Assembly: GCF_003337275.1 (NCBI RefSeq)
Contig: NZ_QPJQ01000001.1
Coordinates: 124,001 to 188,000, forward strand
From: Marinomonas foliarum
Lineage (GTDB): Bacteria; Pseudomonadota; Gammaproteobacteria; Pseudomonadales; Marinomonadaceae
Length of the DNA: 64,000 nucleotides
Direction of reading: 5' to 3'
Shown here: piece by piece, positions 12,863 through 46,946 of the stretch
Numbering within the stretch: the first letter of the stretch is position 1
Layout: each line of letters opens with the position of its first letter
The notes under the pieces: generated by a model
What the model saw: only the letters and a program-made list of their open reading frames with translations
Database searches by the model: none
Told to the model about the DNA's origin: nothing
Position numbers and translations under genes: made by a program

Positions 12863-13825
<963 letters not shown>

Positions 13826-13834
13826 AAGCTGTTA

Positions 13835-14608
13835 CTATCCCGCTGGGTTCAGCAAAGAATCCTTCAGACTTGCATAAGCCTTAATTCCTCGGGCATTAGG
13901 ATCTAGAGCTGAAGGCGCTATACCTGCTGTACTGGCATCTCTTAACTTTGTGTCTACAGGAATAACAGAATGCCAAACTAACTCTTCGTAAGTATCCTTT
14001 AGGTTTCTGAGGCTTTTATTAGAGGCTTGAGTACGTCGATCAAAAAGAGTAGGAACAATTAAAAATGGTACTGGTCGCTTTCTTGCGCGGTTTATCATCG
14101 TCAATGTTCTCACCATGCGCTCTAACCCTTTAATGGCCAGAAACTCGGTTTGAACTGGAATAACAAGCTGTTGACAAGCCGCTAACGCATTAATCATTAA
14201 TACACCAAGCACTGGAGGGCTATCGATTAACACATAATCGTAATCATCCCATAATATAGCTAGGGTTTTCGAAATAACTAACCCCATACCACCTTGTGAC
14301 TGAGCATGGCGCTCTAACGTTGCCAGGGCTGTAGAAGCAGGCAAAAGTGATAAGTTGGGGTGGCCAGTCTCCAAAATAAGTGAAGCCGGCAAATCTGCAG
14401 GGATCTTTCCTGTCGTTTGAAAAAGGCTATAAGCACTTTTTTCAATTGAATCCGGATCAAAGCGAAAATAGCTCGTCAAAGAGCCATGGGGATCAAGATC
14501 TATCATTAATACCCGATTTCCGGCATCCGCTAACAAGCCTGCCAAAGAAACTACCGTAGTCGTTTTGCCAACGCCGCCTTTTTGATTCGCCACTGCCCAA
14601 ATGTGCAC
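13835..14608 (-). CDS. parC: ParA-like ATPase ParC for polar chemotaxis arrays
   Basis: A 257-residue ParA/MinD-superfamily ATPase with a deviant Walker A NQKGGVGKTTT (8-18). Other motifs are MIDLDPHGSLTSYF (switch I region) and VLIDSPPVLG (Walker B). It starts with GTG preceded by GGGGAG. Its place after motCD and before parP matches ParC, which positions chemotaxis arrays at the pole, rather than FlhG/FleN, which would be next to flhF. Soj-like proteins share the fold, so the name rests on context. Confidence 0.88.
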   Translation of the reverse strand: MHIWAVANQKGGVGKTTTVVSLAGLLADAGNRVLMIDLDPHGSLTSYFRFDPDSIEKSAYSLFQTTGKIPADLPASLILETGHPNLSLLPASTALATLERHAQSQGGMGLVISKTLAILWDDYDYVLIDSPPVLGVLMINALAACQQLVIPVQTEFLAIKGLERMVRTLTMINRARKRPVPFLIVPTLFDRRTQASNKSLRNLKDTYEELVWHSVIPVDTKLRDASTAGIAPSALDPNARGIKAYASLKDSLLNPAG

Positions 14609-20787: not shown

Positions 20788-21525
20788 TTAATCTCGCCAA
20801 TCACTTAATCTAGCTCTCAATCTCATAGCCGCTTGACTATGTATTTGACTAACTCTTGATTCACTAACACCTAGTACTGCGCCAATTTCTTTTAGATTAA
20901 GTTCTTCATTATAATAAAGAGACAAAACCAGTTTTTCTCTTTCCGGTAGATTATCAATCTCTGTGGCTAATTGACTCTGAAAACCACCCTCTTCTACTAA
21001 AGAGTAAGGTGCATTTTCCACTTCGGATTCAACGCTATCTAGATTATTTGTATCAGAGTCTAGCATCTCTTCATAGCTAAACAACTGAGTAGACATGGAT
21101 GAATGAATCATTTCATGGTATTCATCCATGCTTATATTCATGTGTGCTGCCACCTCCATATCTGAGGCTTCTCGACCTAGGGTCGCTTCCAATTCCTTTA
21201 TAGCATTAGCAACCGCTCTACCGTTGCGTCTAACTGAACGAGGAGCCCAGTCCGTTTTTCGCACTTCGTCCATAATGGAACCACGAATACGAATCCCAGC
21301 ATAGGTTTCGAAGCTAGCACCCTTGGTAGATTCAAAGCGTTTATACGCCTCAATAAGCCCCATCATGCCAGCTTGAATTAAATCATCTACATCTACACTA
21401 TCGGGCAATCTAGCCAATAGGTGATAGGCAATTTTTTTCACTAAATACCCGTATTGCTCAACAATCGCATCTATTGAGAGAGTTGCTTTTTTGGAGTATG
21501 TGTTATATCCGTTTTTGGTCTGCAT
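20788..21525 (-). CDS. fliA: Flagellar sigma factor FliA (sigma-28)
   Basis: Directs transcription of late flagellar and chemotaxis genes and is inhibited by FlgM. The 245 residues contain sigma region 2 (VDVDDLIQAGMMGLIEAYKRFE, then FETYAGIRIRGSIMDEVRKTDW), region 3 (RRNGRAVANAIKELEATLGREAS) and region 4 (LPEREKLVLSLYYNEELNLKEIGAVLGVSESRVSQI). The gene directly upstream is flhF; flhG, normally between them, is absent. Confidence 0.97.
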   Translation of the reverse strand: MQTKNGYNTYSKKATLSIDAIVEQYGYLVKKIAYHLLARLPDSVDVDDLIQAGMMGLIEAYKRFESTKGASFETYAGIRIRGSIMDEVRKTDWAPRSVRRNGRAVANAIKELEATLGREASDMEVAAHMNISMDEYHEMIHSSMSTQLFSYEEMLDSDTNNLDSVESEVENAPYSLVEEGGFQSQLATEIDNLPEREKLVLSLYYNEELNLKEIGAVLGVSESRVSQIHSQAAMRLRARLSDWRD

Positions 21526-21621
21526 AAAATAGTCTAAGCAACCTTTACCATTTAAGTTAGTTGCGCTAACTAACTGTACTACATAGTTTGGCGCAACGCT
21601 TTCAGTAATAACATAATTTTA
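21526..21621 (-). other. flhF-fliA junction: inverted repeats, no flhG
   Basis: This 96-bp gap occupies the usual position of flhG/fleN. It holds no coding remnant. GTTGCGC (21560-21566) and GCGCAAC (21591-21597) form 7-base arms around a 24-base spacer. AGTTAG and CTAACT repeats lie within the same stretch. They could form a leader hairpin in front of fliA or mark a deletion junction. Confidence 0.45.
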
Positions 21622-22908
21622 CTAACTACCATACTTTAGTGACCCATAAAGCTGACTATAGTGCTCTGCTGTATAAACAGCTCTACTAATCAGGTTATGT
21701 GCACGAGCTGGCTCGATATCATCTGGTATCCTTTGGCCATCCGCGATATATACAACAGGAAGCCCTTCTTCAATAACTACACTAATCGCTTCACCAAGTG
21801 AAGCTGATTCGTCAAGCTTACTTAAAACACACCCATCCAACTGCACCTGAGAGTAAACTTCAGTTACTGTTTTCAACACTTGTCTTTGACTTGTACAAGG
21901 CAACACCAATAGCTTTTTCAGGCTAGCTCTTGCGCGCTTCATCATTAACAATTGCCGTTCAAGGTTGGAATCTCTTGGGTTCATACCTGCCGTATCAACA
22001 AGCACTAAAGAGTAATGCGCGTATTTTGCCAACACTTCATTTAAATCAGAGTATTCATTAACGACTTCAACTGGGACGTTTAAGATACGGCCAAATGTTC
22101 TCAACTGTTCATGAGCGGCTATTCGGTATGTATCTGTTGTAATTAACACAACACCTTCAGAGCCATGCTTCAATACATGCTGAGCGGCAATTTTACCGAT
22201 CGTTGTCGTTTTACCAACACCTGTGGGGCCCATAAAGGCAATACAGCCACGCAATTCAGAAGAGCTAGATCGAATAGGTATATAGTCCGCCAAGTGCGCC
22301 AACAACCGATTCCAGTCATCTTCACGCCCTTTAAGGTCTATGTCATCCATTAGTCTAGACACAACAAACTCAGATAAACCTAAACCTTTCAGTTTTTCAC
22401 GCGCTCTAGCCTCCACAGAGGACTCTTTAACTGAGCTTCGATTATCATTCTGCTGATGCTGCTCTAACATTGCTCGAACATTTTTCAGTTCTAGTTCCAT
22501 GTCCTGCAATTGCTTAGCATTTTCGCTGTTCTTTACAGACAAGGCCTCTTCAACAGCTGGGTCTTCCTTATCATCAGAAAGTGGCGGCATTTCAATTTGA
22601 GAGGCTTGACGCGATTCCGCATAAGAAGGTGCATCATTTTTAGGTGGCGTAGTTTGCTGCTTTGCTCGTTCGATACGTTCTAAATAATTCGCACTAGGGT
22701 CGGCAGAAGAGTCCGAACGTGGCGAACTAGAACGCTTAGATGACATGCTAGAAGGTAATGATCCATCGTAATCTAGAGCGGCAACAATTTCTATCTCGCC
22801 TGTCGGCAGACGTTGATTTGACAAGATAACCGCATCAGGACCTACGGCATCACGAACTTTCCGTATCGCTTGACGCATGTCTGGTGCTCGAAACCGCCTA
22901 ATTTGCAT
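21622..22908 (-). CDS. flhF: Flagellar SRP-type GTPase FlhF
   Basis: Polar landmark GTPase that places the first flagellar components at the pole. The 428-residue protein has a basic B domain at the start (MQIRRFRAPDMRQAIRKVRDAVGPDAVILS), a variable acidic/Ser linker (about 48-165), an N domain, and a GTPase domain with P-loop GPTGVGKTT (227-235), LITTDTYRIAAHEQL, VDTAGMNPRD and LSKLDESASLGEAI. FlhG usually follows and stimulates its GTPase, but fliA follows here. Confidence 0.96.
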   Translation of the reverse strand: MQIRRFRAPDMRQAIRKVRDAVGPDAVILSNQRLPTGEIEIVAALDYDGSLPSSMSSKRSSSPRSDSSADPSANYLERIERAKQQTTPPKNDAPSYAESRQASQIEMPPLSDDKEDPAVEEALSVKNSENAKQLQDMELELKNVRAMLEQHQQNDNRSSVKESSVEARAREKLKGLGLSEFVVSRLMDDIDLKGREDDWNRLLAHLADYIPIRSSSSELRGCIAFMGPTGVGKTTTIGKIAAQHVLKHGSEGVVLITTDTYRIAAHEQLRTFGRILNVPVEVVNEYSDLNEVLAKYAHYSLVLVDTAGMNPRDSNLERQLLMMKRARASLKKLLVLPCTSQRQVLKTVTEVYSQVQLDGCVLSKLDESASLGEAISVVIEEGLPVVYIADGQRIPDDIEPARAHNLISRAVYTAEHYSQLYGSLKYGS

Positions 22909-32255: not shown

Positions 32256-33965
32256 CTAATTAATTAAGCCAACTTGCCAATGATAATGCGCGGTCACTGC
32301 GCTCCCTCCCTTAGAGAATTCCAACTTAGAACACAGCTGATCCAATAATGCCAAGCCTCGGTTATAAAGCAACTCTGCATTGGACATATCGTAATTCACC
32401 TTCTGATAATCAAAGCCAGAGCCACTGTCTTCAACATACAAAACAAGTACTCGCTGATTATTATCAGAAGTTACTCTAACTGAAATTTTAACATACCCCT
32501 CGACCAAATCACTTAAACGCTGCTCACGCTCAGCGTAATACTGAGAAAAACCTTCACTGGAACTCTTCTTTACTGAATTAAGCTGTAACACACCGTGCTC
32601 AAGTGCATTCGAATATAATTCAGAAAGGATCATAAAAATCTGACTAGAGAAGCTACTTAAACCTGGCACTGTAGTAAGTATTTGAAGAACATACGGGAGT
32701 GGATCCGTATTGCGAAGCGAGTCAGCATATAAGACATACTCAAACGAAAAATTAGCAGGGGTCTCATGATGCCTTTTTGGCGCATCACGCTCTAACGAAT
32801 CAATCCCGATGTTTGTATCTAAACGAATATTCAAACAGGAAATATCATCATGAGGGTTTTCTAACACCCCTTCATTCCTCAACTGCTCAATCAACCAATC
32901 TGTCGCCCTGTCTGCTTCTATCTCCCCTTGATAAAGAGGGTTAAGCACTGAATGGCAGAACATCTCACCCGACAAATCCAGGGCCTCATAAACACCGTCT
33001 GAAAACGCCATCAACCTATCTCCAGGAACAAACGTCATAGGATCGATTTGACACTCAAAAGCCTCAGGCGAAAGCACACCTAATGGCAAGTTTTTCGACG
33101 AAAAGCGAATCGGCTGCCGAGAGGACCCTGAAAAAAATAGTAAATCTGGTAGCCCACCATTCCAGACCTCAATACTATTATTGTTCACTTTAACATCGAT
33201 AAATACAGCGCTACAGAACATATTTGCAGGCAAAATACTTTTAAGGCGTGCATTAATTTCAGGAATAATTTGACGCATCAGAAACCCTTTTTTTGTCCAA
33301 TCAAAAAAGATATCTGCTAATGGAAGAGCCCCAATAGCGGCCGAGAGGCCATGACCCGTAAAATCACCCAATAATAAATGCATCCCACCGTTTGGTTTAT
33401 AAGCAGCCAAGATCACATCACCATTAAAGGTTTGGGTACCATAGTGAATAGTTGCGAGAGCGGGGTCTTCTAAACAATTTGAATGGGTAATATTCTCGTA
33501 AACAACCTTTGCTACCTCTTGATCGTGTAGCAATTGCTCATTGTATAAACTCATTGCATCACGCTGCTCTTCCAACGTTTTTTGCATTACGAGCAACTTC
33601 ACTATAGCGTTTAATTTCGCCGTAATAAGAGCTGGATTATAAGGTTTTGAGATGAAATCAATACCGCCAATACGTAGGCATTTAGATAAGGCTATGGGGT
33701 CAGAAACACCCGAAAGAAAAACAATAGGAACAAACAAGTCTCCAGCAATCTGCTGAATTTCAAGAGCGGCCTCCCAACCATTTTTTAATGGCATTTTAAT
33801 ATCTAAACAGACAAGTTGAATGGCCTTAGGATCAAATTTATCAATAGCATCTTGACCATCAATGGCAACAATAACCTTGTGTCCGAGTTGACTCAAAATA
33901 GCCTTCAATAAAATGCGATCAGACGGGTTATCATCCGCAATCAATATGGTTAAAACTTGTTCCAT
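32256..33965 (-). CDS. HsbR-like response regulator: receiver, PP2C phosphatase, HATPase
   Basis: A 569-residue soluble regulator. The receiver domain (1-120) has Asp11, Asp12, phospho-acceptor Asp55 (CLDIKMP) and Lys107. A PP2C/SpoIIE phosphatase domain (about 170-375) shows LLLGDFTGHGLSAAIGALPL and MAFSDGVYEALD. A C-terminal HATPase of anti-sigma type (about 410-560) shows ILSELYSNALEHGVLQL and YVEDSGSGFD. This architecture is that of HsbR (P. aeruginosa) and CrsR (Shewanella), which act on a STAS partner by dephosphorylation and phosphorylation. The STAS gene is 6 bases upstream, so a partner switch is well supported. The output target, FlgM or sigma-S, is inferred. Confidence 0.88.
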   Translation of the reverse strand: MEQVLTILIADDNPSDRILLKAILSQLGHKVIVAIDGQDAIDKFDPKAIQLVCLDIKMPLKNGWEAALEIQQIAGDLFVPIVFLSGVSDPIALSKCLRIGGIDFISKPYNPALITAKLNAIVKLLVMQKTLEEQRDAMSLYNEQLLHDQEVAKVVYENITHSNCLEDPALATIHYGTQTFNGDVILAAYKPNGGMHLLLGDFTGHGLSAAIGALPLADIFFDWTKKGFLMRQIIPEINARLKSILPANMFCSAVFIDVKVNNNSIEVWNGGLPDLLFFSGSSRQPIRFSSKNLPLGVLSPEAFECQIDPMTFVPGDRLMAFSDGVYEALDLSGEMFCHSVLNPLYQGEIEADRATDWLIEQLRNEGVLENPHDDISCLNIRLDTNIGIDSLERDAPKRHHETPANFSFEYVLYADSLRNTDPLPYVLQILTTVPGLSSFSSQIFMILSELYSNALEHGVLQLNSVKKSSSEGFSQYYAEREQRLSDLVEGYVKISVRVTSDNNQRVLVLYVEDSGSGFDYQKVNYDMSNAELLYNRGLALLDQLCSKLEFSKGGSAVTAHYHWQVGLIN

Positions 33966-33971
33966 ATAAAA

Positions 33972-34274
33972 CTACTCAGTAATAACAAACAGCCGATGGA
34001 AGTTAGCAATTTTTAGAATATCGTTAACCGCACCATTTGCGTGTATCAATCTAATATTAGCTTTATCAGCTCCAGCATAATCTCTAAGCAACAACAACAT
34101 CCCTAAAGCAGAGCTATCGAGGTAAGTTACTTTAGACAAATCCACATCATAAGAAGTTACATCAACAGCGTTAATAAAAGCCTCTTTAAACATCTTATGG
34201 CAGCTGTAATCGAAACGCCCTTCTATTTGGATCGTTAAACACCCTGATTTTTTATCAAAAAAGCTTTCAACCAC
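33972..34274 (-). CDS. STAS-domain anti-anti-sigma factor (HsbA-like)
   Basis: A 100-residue single STAS domain with the phosphorylatable-serine motif VTYLDSSALGMLLLLRD (Ser54 and Ser55). In P. aeruginosa HsbA is controlled by HsbR and binds FlgM or a diguanylate cyclase; in Shewanella CrsA controls sigma-S. The direct pairing with the receiver-PP2C-HATPase gene supports the same switch here. It lies 30 bases after the gene at 34305. Confidence 0.88.
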   Translation of the reverse strand: MVESFFDKKSGCLTIQIEGRFDYSCHKMFKEAFINAVDVTSYDVDLSKVTYLDSSALGMLLLLRDYAGADKANIRLIHANGAVNDILKIANFHRLFVITE

Positions 34275-34304
34275 AGCCTACTCCTAGAGGGTGAATGGAA
34301 AGCC

Positions 34305-36194
34305 TTATTTAGCCCCCCACTCACTATTAGATTCTTCTGCAGAAATATCGTCATCTGCAGCTGATGAAATACTGATAGTGGCTCTCTCCATCAAACTGTG
34401 GAGCCGCTCCAGCACTTCATTAACGGACAGTCTTGCTTTATCTAGCCTCGCGACACCAACACTTCTATCGGATTCCAGCAAAGACAATGTGGATGACGTC
34501 ATTGACTTCATCCCCTCTATCTGATTTTGAACATTGCTAATATCGTGTTGTAAATCAACAGCAAAACGATGACGTATACTCTCGCTTTGACCTTCCGTTG
34601 CGGCCAGGCTGGTTAACACTCCAGCCCTAACTTCATTAAGCCACCGCTCTACATCACCTAATAAAAACACATCAGAAGACAAATCTTTTTCAACCAACGC
34701 GAGGCGCTGCAAAACCAACTCATAACCTAATATCAATGAATCCCTTATTTGTTCAGATAACCAAACAACATCACCTAGTTCATTTTGAAACGTTTCTGCA
34801 ATCGAATCATCGACCAGAGCAACATCATTATTAGCAGATAGTTCATTGTGATTTGTTTCTTCGTCAATTAGGGATGCTATTTGTTGTAGTTTAGTAACTT
34901 TTTCTAACGATTTTGTTTGTGATGGCAAGGTGTTCAGCGCATTAAAAGCTGATATGACATTTTGGCGGGTCTGCTCTAATGATTTCGCAAAGGAGGCATA
35001 AGGAGACGATACTCTCAATGGACGTATAGGGGCATCCCACACATCGTGAGACATAAGCTTCAAGCTATGATGCAGCACCTCAAGCTCAGCCATTTCAGAT
35101 TTGGCTTTAATTGAAATAAAACACTGCAAATTAGCCGCCCCTTCATCACCCTCTGAAACAAAGCGCTTCACACTTAGCTGGTACATACCATCCGATAAAG
35201 TTAACACCACGCCATCTTCAGACAATAGTATTGAATCTGCTATACGCTCCCCAATAGGGTCATCTAGGCCTGAGTCGATACCAAAAATAGACTCGAACAA
35301 AGAGGTATTTTTAAACCAAAGGCGCTCTGCCCCAGCACTTAACCAACTCACATCACCTTCATGATTGGTAATAAAGAATGCCTCATCAACTTGCCCAAAA
35401 GCCTTTTCAACTAAACTAATCGTTTCCTGAGATTGACGAATATCAAAATCACGAGATGCCAATTCATTATCAAAAAAGTGGCCAATATCTGTTAACTCGT
35501 CCACTACATTTCGAGGCGCTAACACAGGAGCGTGACTGTGCTTATAATGATCCAACACTGCCTGCAAACTAGAAAAACCTGTACGCAACTGAGCCGCAAA
35601 TCGCACACTCAACATTAACAAAGTCGCCATCAAAACAATAAATGCAGCAATACATCCTAACATTAAACGTTCAGAAAACAGTTGATGCTCATAATCAAGG
35701 CCAACACTAATTTGTTGCAACTTATCACTTAGCGCCTTTAACTGAGTAATCGAAGCGTAAGCCGCGATGCGATCTGACTCTGCCAACAGCATCCCACCTG
35801 ATTCTTTTTGAGTCATTCCATCCAATAATATGAAAGAGTCAGACACATTTTCGTCTGCTATAAGCGGAAAACTTGACAACCGACTCTCAATCAAACGGTA
35901 TTCACTCAATAGCGCTTGAGAAAAATCACTTGTATTTATAGTTGAGCTATTAATATCGACATCTTTTCCAAACAACAACCACTGCAGCCAGTTCTCCTTC
36001 GCACTATGCGTCAATACTAAAAGCTCATCCAACTTCGCTTGCTCTTGCCTCTGCTGCTCTAAACTCATATTGATAGCAACATACATTCCACTAAATGCGA
36101 GTAATAGCATAAACAATAAAGCCACGACGCCTTTTTGCAGTCTGTTAATGAGCTCTTTTCTTGGAGCGCCAAACGGTGAATGTGGTGTATTCAT
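34305..36194 (-). CDS. Membrane sensor with HAMP- and PAS-like parts, no chemoreceptor tip; unrecognised family
   Basis: A 629-residue protein from ATG 36194; a TTG two codons earlier is weaker. It has a membrane helix near 22-42, a periplasmic helical region (about 43-180), a second helix near 184-206, a HAMP-like segment (about 207-262) and a PAS-like segment starting DEAFFITNHEGDVSWLSAGAERLW. A long helical region follows (about 365-605) and an acidic tail. The topology is that of a chemoreceptor, but the conserved receptor hairpin around [16 protein letters not shown] is missing, as are kinase or GGDEF motifs. It is flanked by the STAS gene and an unknown gene inside the fli operon. Input to the partner switch is inferred from position only. 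Confidence 0.7.
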   Translation of the reverse strand: MNTPHSPFGAPRKELINRLQKGVVALLFMLLLAFSGMYVAINMSLEQQRQEQAKLDELLVLTHSAKENWLQWLLFGKDVDINSSTINTSDFSQALLSEYRLIESRLSSFPLIADENVSDSFILLDGMTQKESGGMLLAESDRIAAYASITQLKALSDKLQQISVGLDYEHQLFSERLMLGCIAAFIVLMATLLMLSVRFAAQLRTGFSSLQAVLDHYKHSHAPVLAPRNVVDELTDIGHFFDNELASRDFDIRQSQETISLVEKAFGQVDEAFFITNHEGDVSWLSAGAERLWFKNTSLFESIFGIDSGLDDPIGERIADSILLSEDGVVLTLSDGMYQLSVKRFVSEGDEGAANLQCFISIKAKSEMAELEVLHHSLKLMSHDVWDAPIRPLRVSSPYASFAKSLEQTRQNVISAFNALNTLPSQTKSLEKVTKLQQIASLIDEETNHNELSANNDVALVDDSIAETFQNELGDVVWLSEQIRDSLILGYELVLQRLALVEKDLSSDVFLLGDVERWLNEVRAGVLTSLAATEGQSESIRHRFAVDLQHDISNVQNQIEGMKSMTSSTLSLLESDRSVGVARLDKARLSVNEVLERLHSLMERATISISSAADDDISAEESNSEWGAK

Positions 36195-36209
36195 AGGCAA
36201 TAATCACTT

Positions 36210-38072
36210 TCAAGCTAATAATAATGATGGCCAAACGCCAGCAACAAAGAACACAAAGTTTTTCTTATTGATCAATATTTCACTGCAGTCAGTATAGGAA
36301 AAAGTAGACTTTTCACCCTGACCATTCTGCATATTATCTAAGGCAATAAAATCCTGAATATATTCAGTTTCAGGCAAAGCGGCACTCCAGTTACATGAAG
36401 ACAGAGGTAAAGCAATCGACGCGCCCATCCACTCTAAAATGACAGTAAAGACAGAATCATCAGTTGAAAAACTCAGCCTGTAGTCTAATGGCATTTCATT
36501 TACAACTCGGTCATAGCAACAACCATCATGAACAAGTAAAGCAGCAGACTCATAGCCTTCTTCAACCCGGCTCATAATAGTCCTAGGCGTTTGATAAGGA
36601 AGCAATGCAGAAACTAAACTCGCCTCTATCCAAAACATCCTGCCACAAACGCTTCCAGAATAATAACCGTTCTTAGTTGGTAAATCTTCTATCTTAGACT
36701 CTTGCCAATTAGATATTTCTGGTAACCGCTCAGTATTCAGTAGCCAAGGCTCAATCAACAATTCATTCAATGAATTCAACCAAACGTTTTTACTCCATAA
36801 ACGAGGTGATGGCATTTGGCATGAAACAGCTTCTACAGTACGAATAAAAAAATAAGGAATCGCAAAATAGTGTCCGCCTTGTTGAACCACCAAGACTTTA
36901 TCAATGCTAGAGGGAAAGAGACAAAAAGCATCATCTTTTGAAAGCAAAGGCATTTCTAATAAAACCTCTGCCTCATGATTATTATCTATCGAAAAAAACC
37001 AGCGTTCTCCTGCTCTACGGATATCCCCTTCATTCACAAGAAACTTACCTACACAATCCTCTCGATCGAAAACAAATACACCACAGCTCGTTTCTACCTC
37101 ATATAAAATATAAGCAAGGCAATCACGTCCTAAACAGGAAAGATAAAAAAACTCAGCGCCATTAAAAGAAGCAATGTAAACAGAGCCACCATGTCGAATA
37201 GAAAGATAATGATGCCCTTCATCCACATCAATCGGAACAAGATGCTCTGCCAGAGGCACAAGACGGTCAGCTGAACTTAGCAGGGGAACATCAGAACTAA
37301 AATAGTCACTAAACCGCTTATAGAACTTTTCCTTAAAAAGATCATTAAACCTATCTAACAAGCGATAACGTAGATCACGTGACATAGAGACATTTTGAAA
37401 CAAAGGCAAAAAACTCAATTCGTAGAGTTCTTTTTCCGATTTTTTGTGACTTTTTGGCAGTGCCTTCCAACGTAACTCAGGGAATTTATCTTGAAGCCAA
37501 ATAAGAGACTGCACACTTACCAGCGAAAAACACCCTGTTAATACAGAATTTTTGACAGAATCTAGCTTAAACGACACCGAACCCATTCGAGAAAGCGTTT
37601 CAAGATAGGCATCAATACTGATTGTCGAATTTGTGCTTTCACCCAATCGCGCTTCAAAATTTGTATAGGAAGGCCCATCGAAGGACTGCTCAACAAAAGA
37701 CAACACAACTTGCCAGCAAGCTCTTTCAGCAGACAACAAAACCTCTAATTGAGTCCCTCGTTCTTCATCAACCTGACGACCAATTATTACTTGAACAATG
37801 GCATCGGTAGCAGACAAAAAAGCAAGATGATACTCCTTTTTATAAGGCGCATCTTGCGCCAAAAGCCCATCAGCCGCGGACAAAAGATCCAATAGTCTCT
37901 GATTGTATAAAGGAGAAGAAAGAAGTGATTTAGATATATTTTTGACAGAAATTAATGTCTGGCGAAGCTTAGTGATGCCTTGCGCGGGGGAATAAGCGTA
38001 TTCATGCAATGCACTTTCTATTTGAGCAATAGGCAAAGACAAATTGGTGTCTCCGTTATCCAGTCCCGCCAT
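36210..38072 (-). CDS. Large soluble protein of unknown family, possibly CheW-like at the C-terminus
   Basis: A 620-residue protein that I do not recognise. Residues about 1-130 are predominantly helical. About 150-260 contain helices with a basic patch (ALPKSHKKSEKELYE). From about 275 onward it is beta-rich. A segment near 395-425 (DKVLVVQQGGHYFAIPYFFIRTVEAV) resembles the first strands of CheW domains, but no diagnostic GLINLRG-type motif follows. No signal peptide or convincing membrane helix is seen except a hydrophobic C-terminus (VFFVAGVWPSLLLA). It sits between fliJ and the membrane sensor with a 15-base gap, so co-expression with both is likely. Confidence 0.65.
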   Translation of the reverse strand: MAGLDNGDTNLSLPIAQIESALHEYAYSPAQGITKLRQTLISVKNISKSLLSSPLYNQRLLDLLSAADGLLAQDAPYKKEYHLAFLSATDAIVQVIIGRQVDEERGTQLEVLLSAERACWQVVLSFVEQSFDGPSYTNFEARLGESTNSTISIDAYLETLSRMGSVSFKLDSVKNSVLTGCFSLVSVQSLIWLQDKFPELRWKALPKSHKKSEKELYELSFLPLFQNVSMSRDLRYRLLDRFNDLFKEKFYKRFSDYFSSDVPLLSSADRLVPLAEHLVPIDVDEGHHYLSIRHGGSVYIASFNGAEFFYLSCLGRDCLAYILYEVETSCGVFVFDREDCVGKFLVNEGDIRRAGERWFFSIDNNHEAEVLLEMPLLSKDDAFCLFPSSIDKVLVVQQGGHYFAIPYFFIRTVEAVSCQMPSPRLWSKNVWLNSLNELLIEPWLLNTERLPEISNWQESKIEDLPTKNGYYSGSVCGRMFWIEASLVSALLPYQTPRTIMSRVEEGYESAALLVHDGCCYDRVVNEMPLDYRLSFSTDDSVFTVILEWMGASIALPLSSCNWSAALPETEYIQDFIALDNMQNGQGEKSTFSYTDCSEILINKKNFVFFVAGVWPSLLLA

Positions 38073-43474: not shown

Positions 43475-43837
43475 CTAAATTGGCATATTCATGATTTTTT
43501 CATACGCGTCTACAAGTTTATTACGCACCTGCGTCATTGCTTCAAATGACACACTCGACTTTTGCAGACCTATCATGACTTGAGGCAAATCAACCCCTTC
43601 ATCACCGCGCTCATAGGATTGGGCTAACTGAGTCGATTCTTTTTGCAAAGTATTTACGTTATTGACCGCATTTTTCAGCATTTCTGCAAAATCAGCTCGC
43701 TCAACAGTCTGCCCGCTGTCACTTTCTCCACCTATTTTGGTGATATTAGACACAGAAGAGCTAGGCGCTTGAACTTGCGACTGCATTTCTCTCATTTGAG
43801 ACAACACCTGATTAATGTCTGGTCGACCAGTAATCAT
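43475..43837 (-). CDS. fliE: Flagellar hook-basal body protein FliE
   Basis: Adapter between the MS ring and the rod. The 120-residue protein has a flexible N-terminal part and the conserved C-terminal region FAEMLKNAVNNVNTLQKESTQLAQSY, then LPQVMIGLQKSSVSFEAMTQVRNKLVDAYEKIMNMPI. It is the first gene of fliEFGHIJ and follows the flrBC genes. Confidence 0.96.
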   Translation of the reverse strand: MITGRPDINQVLSQMREMQSQVQAPSSSVSNITKIGGESDSGQTVERADFAEMLKNAVNNVNTLQKESTQLAQSYERGDEGVDLPQVMIGLQKSSVSFEAMTQVRNKLVDAYEKIMNMPI

Positions 43838-43904: not shown

Positions 43905-45251
43905 TCAATCTACATCTATGCCACTTTCACGCATTTTAGCAATTTTGTAACGCAATGTTCTTGGACTAATTCCCAATGTATCTGCAACCACTTTGCGCTT
44001 TCCGTTTGCGTCAATCAGAGCTTGGGCAATAATTCGGAATTCATGCTGCTGAACACCCTTGCCTAAAATGGAAGCAGCACTGTCTTCATCAATAACTGTC
44101 TCTGTCGCTACTGGCGTTAAACTCATCATATCAAAAGCAATATGATCTTCATTAATTTGCGCATTTGGACTTAATATTAGGGCGCGTTGAATCACATTAT
44201 CCAGCTCACGTACATTACCAGGCCAAGGATGTGATTCTAATTTGCTCTGAGCTGACGGTTTTAACATCGCGCCAGCAATACGCATTTTCGTAGCATGTTT
44301 CGCCAGTAAATGCTGAGCAATAGGCAAGATGTCCCCCTTGCGTTCGCGAATTGGCTGCCAACGTAACGGAAATACATTCAAGCGATAATATAAATCTTCT
44401 CTAAAGCCACCTTCCCGCACATAATCTGCAAGATCTCGGTTTGTTGTAGCAATAATTCGAACATCCAAGGGAATCGACTTTTTACCACCAAGGCGTTCTA
44501 CCTCTTGCTCCTGCAGCACTCGTAATAATTTCGCCTGCAAGCCAACATCCATCTCAGTAATTTCATCTAGCAACAGTGTACCGCCATTGGCTTGTTCAAA
44601 TTTACCAGCTTGAGATGATACAGCTCCTGTATAAGCCCCCTTTTCATAACCAAACAATATGGCTTCTAACATATTCTCAGGGATGGCCGCACAGTTAATC
44701 GCCACAAAAGGCGCATTAGGTCGACTTGAATTTTGATGAATATAGTGAGCTAGCACCTCTTTACCAGTACCACTTTCACCACAAATCAGTACTGTCGAAT
44801 CAGTGACAGCAACACGCTTTGCTAATTCAAACAAAGCAATACTTGATGGATCTTTGGCGATAGGTTGAAGACTAACTGAAGGTGCAGCTTTTACAGTGTA
44901 TTTAGCAATCGCGTTTAATAGCTCTTCTTCTTGAAAGGGTTTAAGTAAATAGTCAACCGCACCATCACGCATTGCCTCTACAGCGTGAGCAATATCACCA
45001 TATGCAGTCATCAACATAATAGGTAATTCAGGGTAAGTATCTATGACATGGTGAAGCAATCCATAACCGTCCATCCCAGGCAGGTTAACGTCAGAAACCA
45101 CCATATCAAACAGAGTGTGTTTAAGTGCGATAATCGCCTCTTCAGCGCTGTAGACAATTTTACACTGATAACTTGCCAACATCAGCGTATCTTCTAGCGC
45201 TTCAGCAAGCCCCTTGTCATCCTCTACAATCAATAACTTAACATCAGACAT
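43905..45251 (-). CDS. flrC: Sigma-54-dependent flagellar response regulator FlrC/FleR
   Basis: Activates class III flagellar promoters with sigma-54. The 448-residue protein has a receiver (Asp11, Asp12, Asp54 in VVSDVNLPG), an AAA+ domain with Walker A GESGTGKE, a sigma-54 loop reading GAYTGA instead of GAFTGA, Walker B GGTLLLDEI, and a Fis-type helix-turn-helix at the end (ANGKRKVVADTLGISPRTLRYKI). It pairs with the kinase gene, which starts just upstream. Confidence 0.96.
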   Translation of the reverse strand: MSDVKLLIVEDDKGLAEALEDTLMLASYQCKIVYSAEEAIIALKHTLFDMVVSDVNLPGMDGYGLLHHVIDTYPELPIMLMTAYGDIAHAVEAMRDGAVDYLLKPFQEEELLNAIAKYTVKAAPSVSLQPIAKDPSSIALFELAKRVAVTDSTVLICGESGTGKEVLAHYIHQNSSRPNAPFVAINCAAIPENMLEAILFGYEKGAYTGAVSSQAGKFEQANGGTLLLDEITEMDVGLQAKLLRVLQEQEVERLGGKKSIPLDVRIIATTNRDLADYVREGGFREDLYYRLNVFPLRWQPIRERKGDILPIAQHLLAKHATKMRIAGAMLKPSAQSKLESHPWPGNVRELDNVIQRALILSPNAQINEDHIAFDMMSLTPVATETVIDEDSAASILGKGVQQHEFRIIAQALIDANGKRKVVADTLGISPRTLRYKIAKMRESGIDVD

Positions 45252-45252
45252 T

Positions 45253-46407
45253 TCATACCCTTACAAGAGGCAACGTAAAACTGGCGGTCGTTCCAGTGCC
45301 TTCTATACTGTCTATTTCAAATTGCCCATGATGAGCCCGAGCAATAGCCTTAACCACCATCAAACCCAATCCTGTTCCATGCTGCTTTGTGGTCACAAAA
45401 CCTTCCTGAACATGCTCCAGTTGCGCTTTCGACATTCCAACACCACTGTCTTTAAACATGAGTGTCACAAAACCATGGCTATTACGCCAATGTAATTCCA
45501 CTAAGCCACGTTCAGGCTGTGCATCCACCGCATTATTCACAAGGTTTAATAAAGCCCCCAATAATGTTTCTTTATTACACTGAATACAATCCGTCGCCGA
45601 AAATTCGGCTCCTTCAGCGTCAAATTTCATGTTTCTTTGATCACAAATTTCTTTGCTTTGCGCTGTGAGCTCTTTTATAAAAGCCGTCACACTGACTGTT
45701 TCATCCAGTTTTATTTCACTACGAGAAAAAATCAACATGTCACGTATTTGCTTTTCGATATTAGCTAGCCTATCTGCTAACTTGTTCGCAAAAGTCTGCC
45801 GCATAACAGGAGCAAGATCAGGTTTTTGTAAGTGCCCAGCATATAACGTAGCGGATGAAAGAGGGGTTCGAATTTGGTGCGCTAAAGCCGCCACCATTTT
45901 CCCCATGTTGGACAAACGTTCATGATGACTCAGCTTTTTTTGCAACAAATATGCTTCGGTCAAATCAACCAAAATAACCAGCTGCCCAGGTACATTACCT
46001 AAAGAAGCCGTTTCTACGCGTACTCGTCGCCCTGAAACCATACTAACATCATGGCCATCATCTTTTTGTGGGCGAAAACTAAGAGGAACAATACTCCCCC
46101 ACGCTTGTCCAACCAAAGGTAAATTAAATAAGCGATCCGCGACAGGGTTGGCCATTACAACCACTCCCTCTTCATTCAATAATAGAACTCCAACCGGCAT
46201 AGATTCAAACAACTGTTGAAACTGCAATACCAACACTCTGTTTTTATCTTGTTCTTGGCGCTTATCTTCTTCAAGTTTTTCTAATTGGTCATACAATCGA
46301 GCAACTTCATGCTGAAGATCTACATAAGACTTTGCCAATACATCAGAAGATTCGGAGAAGGCTTTAAACGCGGTTTTTAACTCCGCTATTTCTTCATCTT
46401 TTGTCAC
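45253..46407 (-). CDS. flrB: Flagellar sensor kinase FlrB/FleS
   Basis: Soluble histidine kinase for FlrC. The 384 residues contain a coiled-coil N-terminus, a PAS domain (about 60-155, FESMPVGVLLLNEEGVVVMANPVA), an H box (MVAALAHQIRTPLSSATLYAGHL, near 178-200) and an HATPase domain (NLVNNAVDAQ, MFKDSGVGM, GTGLGLMVVKAIARAH). The start is GTG, overlapping the upstream stop as TAGTG. It ends one base before flrC. Confidence 0.95.
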   Translation of the reverse strand: MTKDEEIAELKTAFKAFSESSDVLAKSYVDLQHEVARLYDQLEKLEEDKRQEQDKNRVLVLQFQQLFESMPVGVLLLNEEGVVVMANPVADRLFNLPLVGQAWGSIVPLSFRPQKDDGHDVSMVSGRRVRVETASLGNVPGQLVILVDLTEAYLLQKKLSHHERLSNMGKMVAALAHQIRTPLSSATLYAGHLQKPDLAPVMRQTFANKLADRLANIEKQIRDMLIFSRSEIKLDETVSVTAFIKELTAQSKEICDQRNMKFDAEGAEFSATDCIQCNKETLLGALLNLVNNAVDAQPERGLVELHWRNSHGFVTLMFKDSGVGMSKAQLEHVQEGFVTTKQHGTGLGLMVVKAIARAHHGQFEIDSIEGTGTTASFTLPLVRV

Positions 46408-46877
46408 TAAAACTCCGACTTATCAATATTATAGCGACGCATTTTCTCAATCAGTGTGGTGCGCTGTATTTGTAAATTTTGCGCAGCTTTAGACACAACA
46501 CCTTGAGTAGATACTAAAGCTTGGCGAATAAGAAGCGCCTCAAGATGGCGAACATGCAAGTTTAAATTTACACCTGAGGCCTGAGGAAAAGTGTGTAACT
46601 GCTTAATTTCTTTCAAAACAAGAGAAAGAGACTGAGAACGCCAAGGCAAAGGACAAAACCACACATTAAAATCACCAATGCTTTTCATCATCGGGCGAAG
46701 TGAGATTAATGGCACCATTTCATCAAGTTCAAAAGAGTCTACCGCCTTACCCAACACAACAAAATCGGGCAAAGAAAGCGAAGCCAAAGACGTGCTATAT
46801 TCGATTCCAATAAAGGTCAAAATGCTGGACACACTCGACGCTTCTTCATCGTCCAATCCACACAACCAAGCCTTCAC
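46407..46877 (-). CDS. Miniature FlrA/FleQ homologue lacking the AAA+ domain
   Basis: A 156-residue protein in the position of the flagellar master regulator gene. Residues about 1-95 resemble the degenerate FleQ/FlrA N-terminal receiver (it lacks the canonical Asp pair and Lys). Residues about 105-150 are a Fis-type helix-turn-helix with the family ending GVVSKAAQNLQIQRTTLIEKMRRYNI. The roughly 240-residue AAA+ domain expected between them is entirely absent, and the junction is in frame. The start is GTG with GAGGTG 5 bases upstream; the stop overlaps flrB. It cannot activate sigma-54 by itself, so a repressor, DNA-bound scaffold or vestigial role is likely. Confidence 0.82.
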   Translation of the reverse strand: MKAWLCGLDDEEASSVSSILTFIGIEYSTSLASLSLPDFVVLGKAVDSFELDEMVPLISLRPMMKSIGDFNVWFCPLPWRSQSLSLVLKEIKQLHTFPQASGVNLNLHVRHLEALLIRQALVSTQGVVSKAAQNLQIQRTTLIEKMRRYNIDKSEF

Positions 46878-46915
46878 AACATCACCTCAATCTAAATAAA
46901 CAAACAACCATCATT

Positions 46916-46946
46916 ACTATAATGCGTTGATTTTACTCACTTTCAA
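46916..46946 (-). promoter_or_regulatory. Possible promoter of the mini-flrA-flrBC operon
   Basis: On the minus strand TTGAAA (46946-46941) and TATAGT (46921-46916) are separated by 19 bases, longer than optimal. The -35 box lies in a small hairpin (TCACT and AGTGA around CTTGAA) that could also be a weak bioD terminator. No sigma-54 site was recognised. Confidence 0.35.

Follow-up and report, generated by a model that had tools for sequence, protein, structure and literature searches.

Loss of the AAA+ domain from the flagellar master regulator FlrA, and absence of FlhG, in the genus Marinomonas

A short flrA gene at the head of flrBC

The stretch analysed here (the window) comprises 64,000 nucleotides of Marinomonas foliarum (NCBI RefSeq assembly GCF_003337275.1, contig NZ_QPJQ01000001.1, positions 124,001 to 188,000) and carries a locus with the gene order bioD–flrA'–flrB–flrC–fliEFG, with names assigned from sequence. 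The gene at the position of the flagellar master regulator FlrA/FleQ, termed short flrA (flrA'), encodes a receiver-like domain and a Fis-type helix-turn-helix (HTH) without an AAA+ domain. The locus contains the following features.

46883..46889, minus strand: ribosome-binding site TGAGGTG, 5' of the GTG start, largely conserved in an upstream alignment of 18 loci
46407..46877, minus strand: short flrA, 156 aa, receiver-like domain plus Fis-type HTH, without AAA+
46590..46877, minus strand: N-domain (residues 1–96), apparently a shrunken FleQ-type receiver, with α1 at residues 10–23
46431..46550, minus strand: Fis/FleQ-type HTH (residues 110–149), Pfam HTH_8, with FleQ as the nearest PDB sequence
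46405..46409, minus strand: TAGTG overlap, in which the flrA' stop and the flrB start have one base in common
45253..46407, minus strand: flrB, sensor kinase with PAS, HisKA and HATPase domains, intact
43905..45251, minus strand: flrC, receiver, AAA+ (GAYTGA) and HTH, intact
43475..43837, minus strand: fliE, which opens the basal-body gene series, with no sigma-54 site upstream

The 156-residue frame, its GTG start codon, the ribosome-binding site and the TAGTG junction, described by an earlier sequence-only reading of this DNA, are all seen on the minus strand; the plus strand contains stops across 46407–46877. HTH_8/Fis is the sole Pfam match of short FlrA above cut-off (E 4.4e-10, residues 110–149), and Sigma54_activat is not found among such matches. 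A search of PDB sequences with a profile built from 35 relatives ranks Pseudomonas aeruginosa FleQ first, through the HTH (E 1.7e-12); the best non-FleQ match is Fis (E 0.41). Profile-profile comparison (hhalign) relates the C-terminal part to FleQ with a probability of 99.3%. The same reading held that the two remaining parts are joined with the AAA+ domain cleanly missing. The Pfam results agree with the absence of this domain; the receiver and the linker between the AAA+ and HTH positions of FleQ are shortened as well. The nearest PDB sequence of the window FlrC is the Vibrio cholerae-type FlrC, "Flagellar regulatory protein C".

The coupling of flrA' to flrB, also proposed earlier, is general. 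Across 39 loci (the window and 38 named public loci), the gap is -1 or 0 in 38, with a one-base overlap in 29 and abutting genes in 9 more, and 13 in Maribrevibacterium. In outgroups, taken from other families of the order, the genes are separated by 140–519 bp in all 11 loci. Consequently, there is no room here for the FlrA-dependent flrBC promoter that this interval can accommodate in outgroups.

Conservation and selection across the genus

The short form is encoded in 47 of the 48 genus genomes at 46–99% identity and without internal stops; the sole exception is an assembly that is 77% complete. Scanning named genomes yielded 46 loci, of which 37 from Marinomonas and one from Maribrevibacterium harenarium align along almost their full length, while the remaining eight, from unrelated taxa, match only partially. 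In these 38 named public loci, flrB and flrC come after short flrA. In a profile search of 5.8 billion proteins, judged on the best 120 of 220 matches, the full-length short form was found only in Marinomonas where the organism was named; the lower entries match via the HTH, and many resemble pieces of FleQ-type proteins. Public records mostly give the gene a generic name (helix-turn-helix domain-containing or hypothetical protein), so the domain loss is easily missed. In the outgroups, by contrast, the match in 17 of 21 genomes is confined to the HTH (within residues 92–155) of a 370–558-aa frame. A flrB-type gene stands beside this full-length frame in 12 of the 17 loci; among the other five, L061 and L066 stop at a contig edge, and no flrB-type gene was found in L068, L071 and L072. 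One of these long-frame proteins, used below as the FleQ query, matches P. aeruginosa FleQ along its whole length at 652 bits.

Codon-level comparison yielded low ratios of nonsynonymous to synonymous substitution (dN/dS). Among 19 ungapped near relatives, from which L175, L180 and L181 with codon insertions were left out, 13 usable pairs gave a median of 0.011 for the HTH, and 9 usable pairs gave 0.09 for the N-domain; many pairs were saturated at synonymous sites. Over 30 of the 38 loci, the other eight being skipped for length, the values were 0.015 (maximum 0.199) and 0.097 (maximum 0.49), respectively. Thirty-eight columns are invariant in 35 sequences spanning identities down to 45%, and the HTH is almost invariant. 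Judged from its codons, short FlrA is under strong purifying selection, in line with the earlier view that it is maintained and not decaying. A pseudogene is rejected on the basis of these ratios and of frames without internal stops in 47 genomes. An assembly deletion of about 1 kb, against which the locus was compared across relatives, is likewise rejected by the presence of the short form in 47 of 48 genomes.

Short flrA might serve mainly as a translational or transcriptional leader for flrBC, its product doing little and TAGTG coupling keeping the frame open, as the overlapping or abutting genes would allow. A leader would need no conserved recognition helix, so the near-invariant HTH at overall identities down to 45%, together with codon-level purifying selection, argues against this explanation, which we regard as improbable.

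In two partly overlapping sets totalling 68 loci, flrB and flrC directly follow short flrA in 67. The exception is L038, from genome G021, whose flagellar cluster has been lost from the start of flrB to motD with short flrA intact beside the deletion (L205–L206, C1:2495001-2530000). The junction contains a 5' stub of flrB and open reading frames (ORFs) that by eye resemble IS66-type transposase genes. These features suggest that the loss is probably recent, so the retention of short flrA proves little, and G021 was set aside as a natural experiment.

Origin of the N-terminal domain

The N-domain, a shortened receiver-like domain of about 96 residues, aligns to FleQ residues 5–129, and structural realignment places its fold nearest to the FleQ/FlrA receivers. 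By this realignment, it looks like a shrunken FleQ receiver. The phospho-acceptor position after strand β3 (residues 39–42) is Gly43, invariant in 35 aligned short FlrA sequences, and most of 15 aligned outgroup FleQ proteins also have Gly there.

Response regulators of the RegA/PrrA/ActR type combine a receiver with a Fis-type HTH without AAA+, and have a phosphorylatable receiver and a cognate kinase. An unrelated small receiver-like regulator of this style could have replaced flrA at the locus. Such a replacement would fit a HMMER search of the N-domain against 2772 ORFs, which gave no FleQ match, and Foldseek's own ranking, in which FixJ and VanR precede FlrA at the 13th place. The position of the conserved Asp that follows β3 in the RegA/PrrA type is occupied in short FlrA by the invariant Gly43, and the realigned fold favors FleQ/FlrA. 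We consider replacement quite unlikely.

Absence of full-length FleQ and of FlhG

A full-length FleQ elsewhere in the genome, which the sequence-only reading named as evidence that would count against it, was not found in the 35 genus genomes searched, out of 48. The best match to the outgroup FleQ query was at most 274 bits, as expected for generic activators, versus 307–1082 bits in 17 of 21 outgroups, one of which supplied the query. The window genome has 18 AAA+ matches; the 12 above 200 bits were counted as sigma-54 activators (FlrC and 11 others), and the other six score at most 30 bits. A tree built on AAA+ domains places none of these 11 in the FleQ clade (support 98/97, 14 of 15 FleQ rows), and the window FlrC lies inside the FlrC clade (100/99). 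The tree includes 15 of the 17 outgroup FleQ proteins, with L059 (cut by a contig end) and L072 left out; the FleQ row L074 and the window genome's own C30 and C50 are unplaced. The Pfam FleQ-domain model exceeds its cut-off of 22 bits in C5 and C20 (27.6 and 23.6 bits), and these two group with C27 (100/99) in their own clade apart from FleQ. The search of 35 genomes and the tree of the window genome's activators together reject transfer of the FleQ-type AAA+ domain to another gene. RpoN was found in 47 of 48 genus genomes. G031, a 99%-complete genus member, gave no RpoN match, although short flrA and fliF are present in it.

FlhG/FleN, the partner of FleQ, is missing as well. The relevant features of the window are as follows.

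21622..22908, minus strand: flhF, retained
21526..21621, minus strand: flhF–fliA junction of 96 bp, the site of flhG/fleN in outgroups, with no such gene here
20788..21525, minus strand: fliA, sigma-28, retained

No flhG lies between flhF and fliA in any of the 34 genus loci with flhF, which have about 100 bp between the two genes; G021, the 35th genome, falls outside this count through loss of the cluster. In outgroups, an FlhG-type ORF with a P-loop motif follows flhF in 10 of 10 loci, and the flhF–fliA distance is about 0.9–1.3 kb in the nine that reach fliA. An outgroup FlhG query, which matches FleN at 418 bits, scored 110–598 bits in 15 of 21 outgroups, one of them the genome it came from, and at most 72.3 bits across the 48 genus genomes. 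Relocation of flhG is rejected because the best genus matches reach only 25–30% identity and these low scores; by size and score, they are probably MinD. Four outgroup genomes have neither FleQ nor an FlhG match. A ParA-type gene at 13835–14608 of the window, adjoining motD and CheW-like genes, scores with partition ParA/MinD models; we take it to be ParC, and it was rejected as FlhG. Separately, G044 (L060) has a full-length FleQ, but no FlhF match at E 1e-30 and no strong FlhG match.

Sigma-54 sites and the flrA'BC operon

Sigma-54 sites were scanned upstream of 30 genes in 7 Marinomonas and 5 outgroups. Nine genes were classed from the literature, five as FlrA-type (flrB, fliE, fliL, flhA and flgA) and four as FlrC-type (flgB, flgF, flgG and flgK), and the others were left uncounted; fliL and flgA were taken to belong with the FlrA/FleQ-controlled operons. 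The -24/-12 elements were scored in 250 bases upstream and 30 inside each gene, with at least 9 of 12 positions matching and GG and GC required, and expectations were obtained by shuffling. Genes not found in the stretch or with fewer than 200 bases upstream were dropped, leaving 33 of 35 Marinomonas and 18 of 25 outgroup FlrA-type regions. According to excerpts of PMC7064773, the MS-ring, C-ring, export and flrBC genes of V. cholerae depend on FlrA, and its flgB, flgF and flgK depend on FlrBC; an excerpt of PMC6424431 describes flhA of Pseudomonas putida as a FleQ-dependent sigma-54 promoter.

At the FlrA-type operons, sigma-54 sites occur in 0 of 33 Marinomonas regions (1.5 expected) versus 14 of 18 in outgroups (1.4 expected). 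Under a stricter threshold of at least 10 of 12 positions, none of the 39 loci has a site at flrB, versus 6 of 11 outgroups, and none has one at fliE, versus 1 of 6. At the FlrC-type genes of Marinomonas, sites are found in 7 of 7 for flgB, 6 of 7 for flgK and 1 of 7 for flgG, with 1.2 expected in all four genes; the outgroups show 11 of 20 (1.5 expected), with 0 of 5 for flgK. Among the uncounted genes, 3 of the 7 Marinomonas show a 9/12 site at -28 of fliK, motC has a 10/12 site at -96 in G028, and flhF has sites more than 200 bp upstream. Thus FlrB, a FlrC with receiver, AAA+ and HTH, and a sigma-54 site at flgB, as in the FlrC/FleR two-component tier, are all present. The loss of sites at the FlrA-type operons, together with that of flhG, supports the earlier proposal that the top tier works differently here. 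A conserved TTGCCGCTTTTTGCCG-type block upstream of the flgB sigma-54 site (L124 position 5330 and relatives) is a candidate FlrC enhancer.

The FlrA-type promoters might have been taken over by FlrC or by a different activator, for example the C30 protein, in which case the cascade would still start at sigma-54. FlrC and rpoN are kept in the window genome, and 11 further sigma-54 activators could supply such a substitute. With no site seen at flrB, fliE, fliL, flhA or flgA, a substitute activator would have few targets, and we give this explanation a low chance.

A pattern scan suggests how the fused operon may be read instead.

46919..46946, minus strand: putative sigma-70 promoter of flrA'BC, TTGAAA-16-CATTAT

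A similar motif with the same 16-base spacing, allowing one-base variants, occurs in 12 of 18 aligned upstream regions, which are the closest of the 39.

A proposed model and flagellar number

Considering these results, we propose that the sigma-54 master tier has been dismantled, that FlrBC is the sole sigma-54 tier, and that short FlrA has been kept as a sigma-54-independent DNA-binding regulator. We assign this model a probability of roughly 0.75. In the ancestor of Marinomonas (including Maribrevibacterium), FlrA/FleQ would have lost its AAA+ motor and part of the receiver. The remaining receiver-like plus Fis-type HTH protein would have kept DNA binding, and would be devoid of ATP hydrolysis, sigma-54 contact, c-di-GMP binding via the AAA+ pocket and FlhG/FleN docking there. 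FlrA-dependent sigma-54 promoters and flhG would have been lost along with the AAA+ domain, and flrA' would have become the first gene of a flrA'–flrB–flrC operon read from a sigma-70-type promoter. Early genes might then be served by housekeeping transcription, as proposed for Campylobacter, with FlrB–FlrC as the only sigma-54 tier, acting on rod and hook genes (flgB, flgK), and FliA serving the late genes. Short FlrA, being under selection, would most likely tune its own operon or early flagellar operons. The sequences themselves show the loss of the domain, its conservation throughout the genus, the lack of FleQ and FlhG in the genomes searched, which sigma-54 sites were lost or kept, and the fusion of the operon. 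That short FlrA binds DNA and regulates its own operon, that sigma-70 reads these genes, and in which order the losses occurred are inferences.

Several observations weigh against this model. The N-domain lacks a HMMER link to FleQ, and its profile-profile match to the FleQ receiver is weak (hhalign probability 31%, P 5e-4). G044 and G045 (81% complete) have FleQ and no strong FlhG match, so one loss does not strictly entail the other. No sigma-54 site was found at flgF in the 7 Marinomonas, although it is an FlrBC promoter in V. cholerae, and two 9/12 sites lie beyond the counted 250 bases, at -293 of flhA in G017 and at -334 of fliL in G019. The putative sigma-70 promoter is a consensus match, of which its region holds 5 against 2.9 expected, and its conservation was assessed in the closest 18 of the 39 loci. 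The pattern GTCA-N6-TGAC, which we take to be the FleQ box, occurs at only five scattered places across the flagellar regions examined in 7 Marinomonas, untied to operons, and lends no support to the earlier suggestion that short FlrA could bind FlrA-type sites.

The flagellar phenotype bears on the loss of FlhG. M. phaeophyticola 15G1-11 and M. rhodophyticola KJ51-3 have a single polar flagellum by electron microscopy according to an excerpt of PMC11165874, as does M. posidonica in a strain not tied to any genome here (excerpt of PMC3577112). Short flrA is present in 15G1-11 (L187) and KJ51-3 (L162). The match coordinates of L187 are those of G016 (203120–203587), and G016 (L095), which has the flhF–fliA gap without flhG, is accordingly taken for 15G1-11. 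In V. cholerae, flhG loss leads to hyperflagellation (excerpt of PMC7064773). In P. putida, FleN loss leads to more flagella, and the promoter effect of FleN acts through FleQ (excerpt of PMC6424431). FleN contacts the FleQ AAA+ domain, and the FleQ receiver dimerizes by α1, as stated in part of PMC10723142. With the FleQ AAA+ domain gone, FlhG would no longer have a transcriptional target to restrain, and the Marinomonas state is coherent. The role of FlhG on FlhF must likewise have become unnecessary or been taken over. A bolder extension of the model, which we hold only tentatively, is that the AAA-less, sigma-70-level regulator itself replaces the FlrA–FlhG pair in setting flagellar gene dose and number, one polar flagellum being counted without FlhG or a sigma-54 master.

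Alternatively, short FlrA could be a true repressor or silencer on old enhancer-type sites, restraining flagellar or biofilm genes, so that the remnant sets flagellar dose in place of FlrA–FlhG. The HTH has stayed almost invariant (dN/dS 0.011) while the activator part was lost, the brake by FlhG is missing too and yet 15G1-11 has a single polar flagellum (PMC11165874), and FleQ switches between repressor and activator at biofilm genes (excerpt of PMC10723142). Against this, the FleQ-box scan revealed no operator, and with the FlrA-type sigma-54 sites gone there is no full-length FlrA to antagonize. Repression is possible but rather unlikely on this balance.

Other features of the window

Three large genes lie between fliJ and fliK (32256–38072). 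That at 32256–33965 encodes a response regulator with an apparent phosphatase part, and two proteins of 631 and 620 aa in this interval have no NCBIfam match. The gene at 12863–13825 is CheW-like by eye and encodes a long Glu-Pro repeat run.

Comparison with known systems

In gammaproteobacteria, FleQ/FlrA and FlhG/FleN are regarded as the central pair by which polar flagella are initiated and counted. Marinomonas (48 genomes) appears to have dropped the motor of FleQ/FlrA, all of FlhG and the promoters acted on. The genus is a natural gammaproteobacterial test case for two questions: whether a single polar flagellum requires FlhG and a sigma-54 master tier, and what a bacterial enhancer-binding protein does after loss of its ATPase. 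We found no published account of this state in the open-licence literature, a search that did not extend to subscription journals.

Campylobacter has FlhG. Marinomonas differs from it in having lost FlhG and in keeping a remnant of the master regulator. The early operons of Marinomonas showed no sigma-54 sites in the scan and may be transcribed without sigma-54, as in a Campylobacter-like masterless cascade. The Campylobacter (FlgSR) system is further similar in having no sigma-54 master activator, apparently constitutive early genes and a two-component sigma-54 tier for rod and hook, as described in an excerpt of PMC7064773.

Among small DNA-binding proteins, Fis shares the HTH fold with short FlrA, but its sequence match is weak (E 0.41, versus 1.7e-12 for FleQ). 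RegA/PrrA/ActR share the two-domain order and a similar size; the short FlrA receiver is unlike theirs in being FleQ-like, Asp-less and shortened, with apparent descent from an enhancer-binding protein. Compared with FleQ of Pseudomonas and FlrA of Vibrio, short FlrA has no AAA+ domain, and hence no Walker A/B, GAFTGA, FleN or c-di-GMP site; its receiver is shortened, its gene is fused into the flrBC operon, class II sigma-54 sites were not seen, and the FlhG/FleN partner is absent. What it shares with them is the locus before flrBC/fleSR, a FleQ-type HTH, a receiver-like domain of the same overall fold, and the absence of the phospho-acceptor Asp, which is Gly43 in short FlrA and Gly in most outgroup FleQ proteins.
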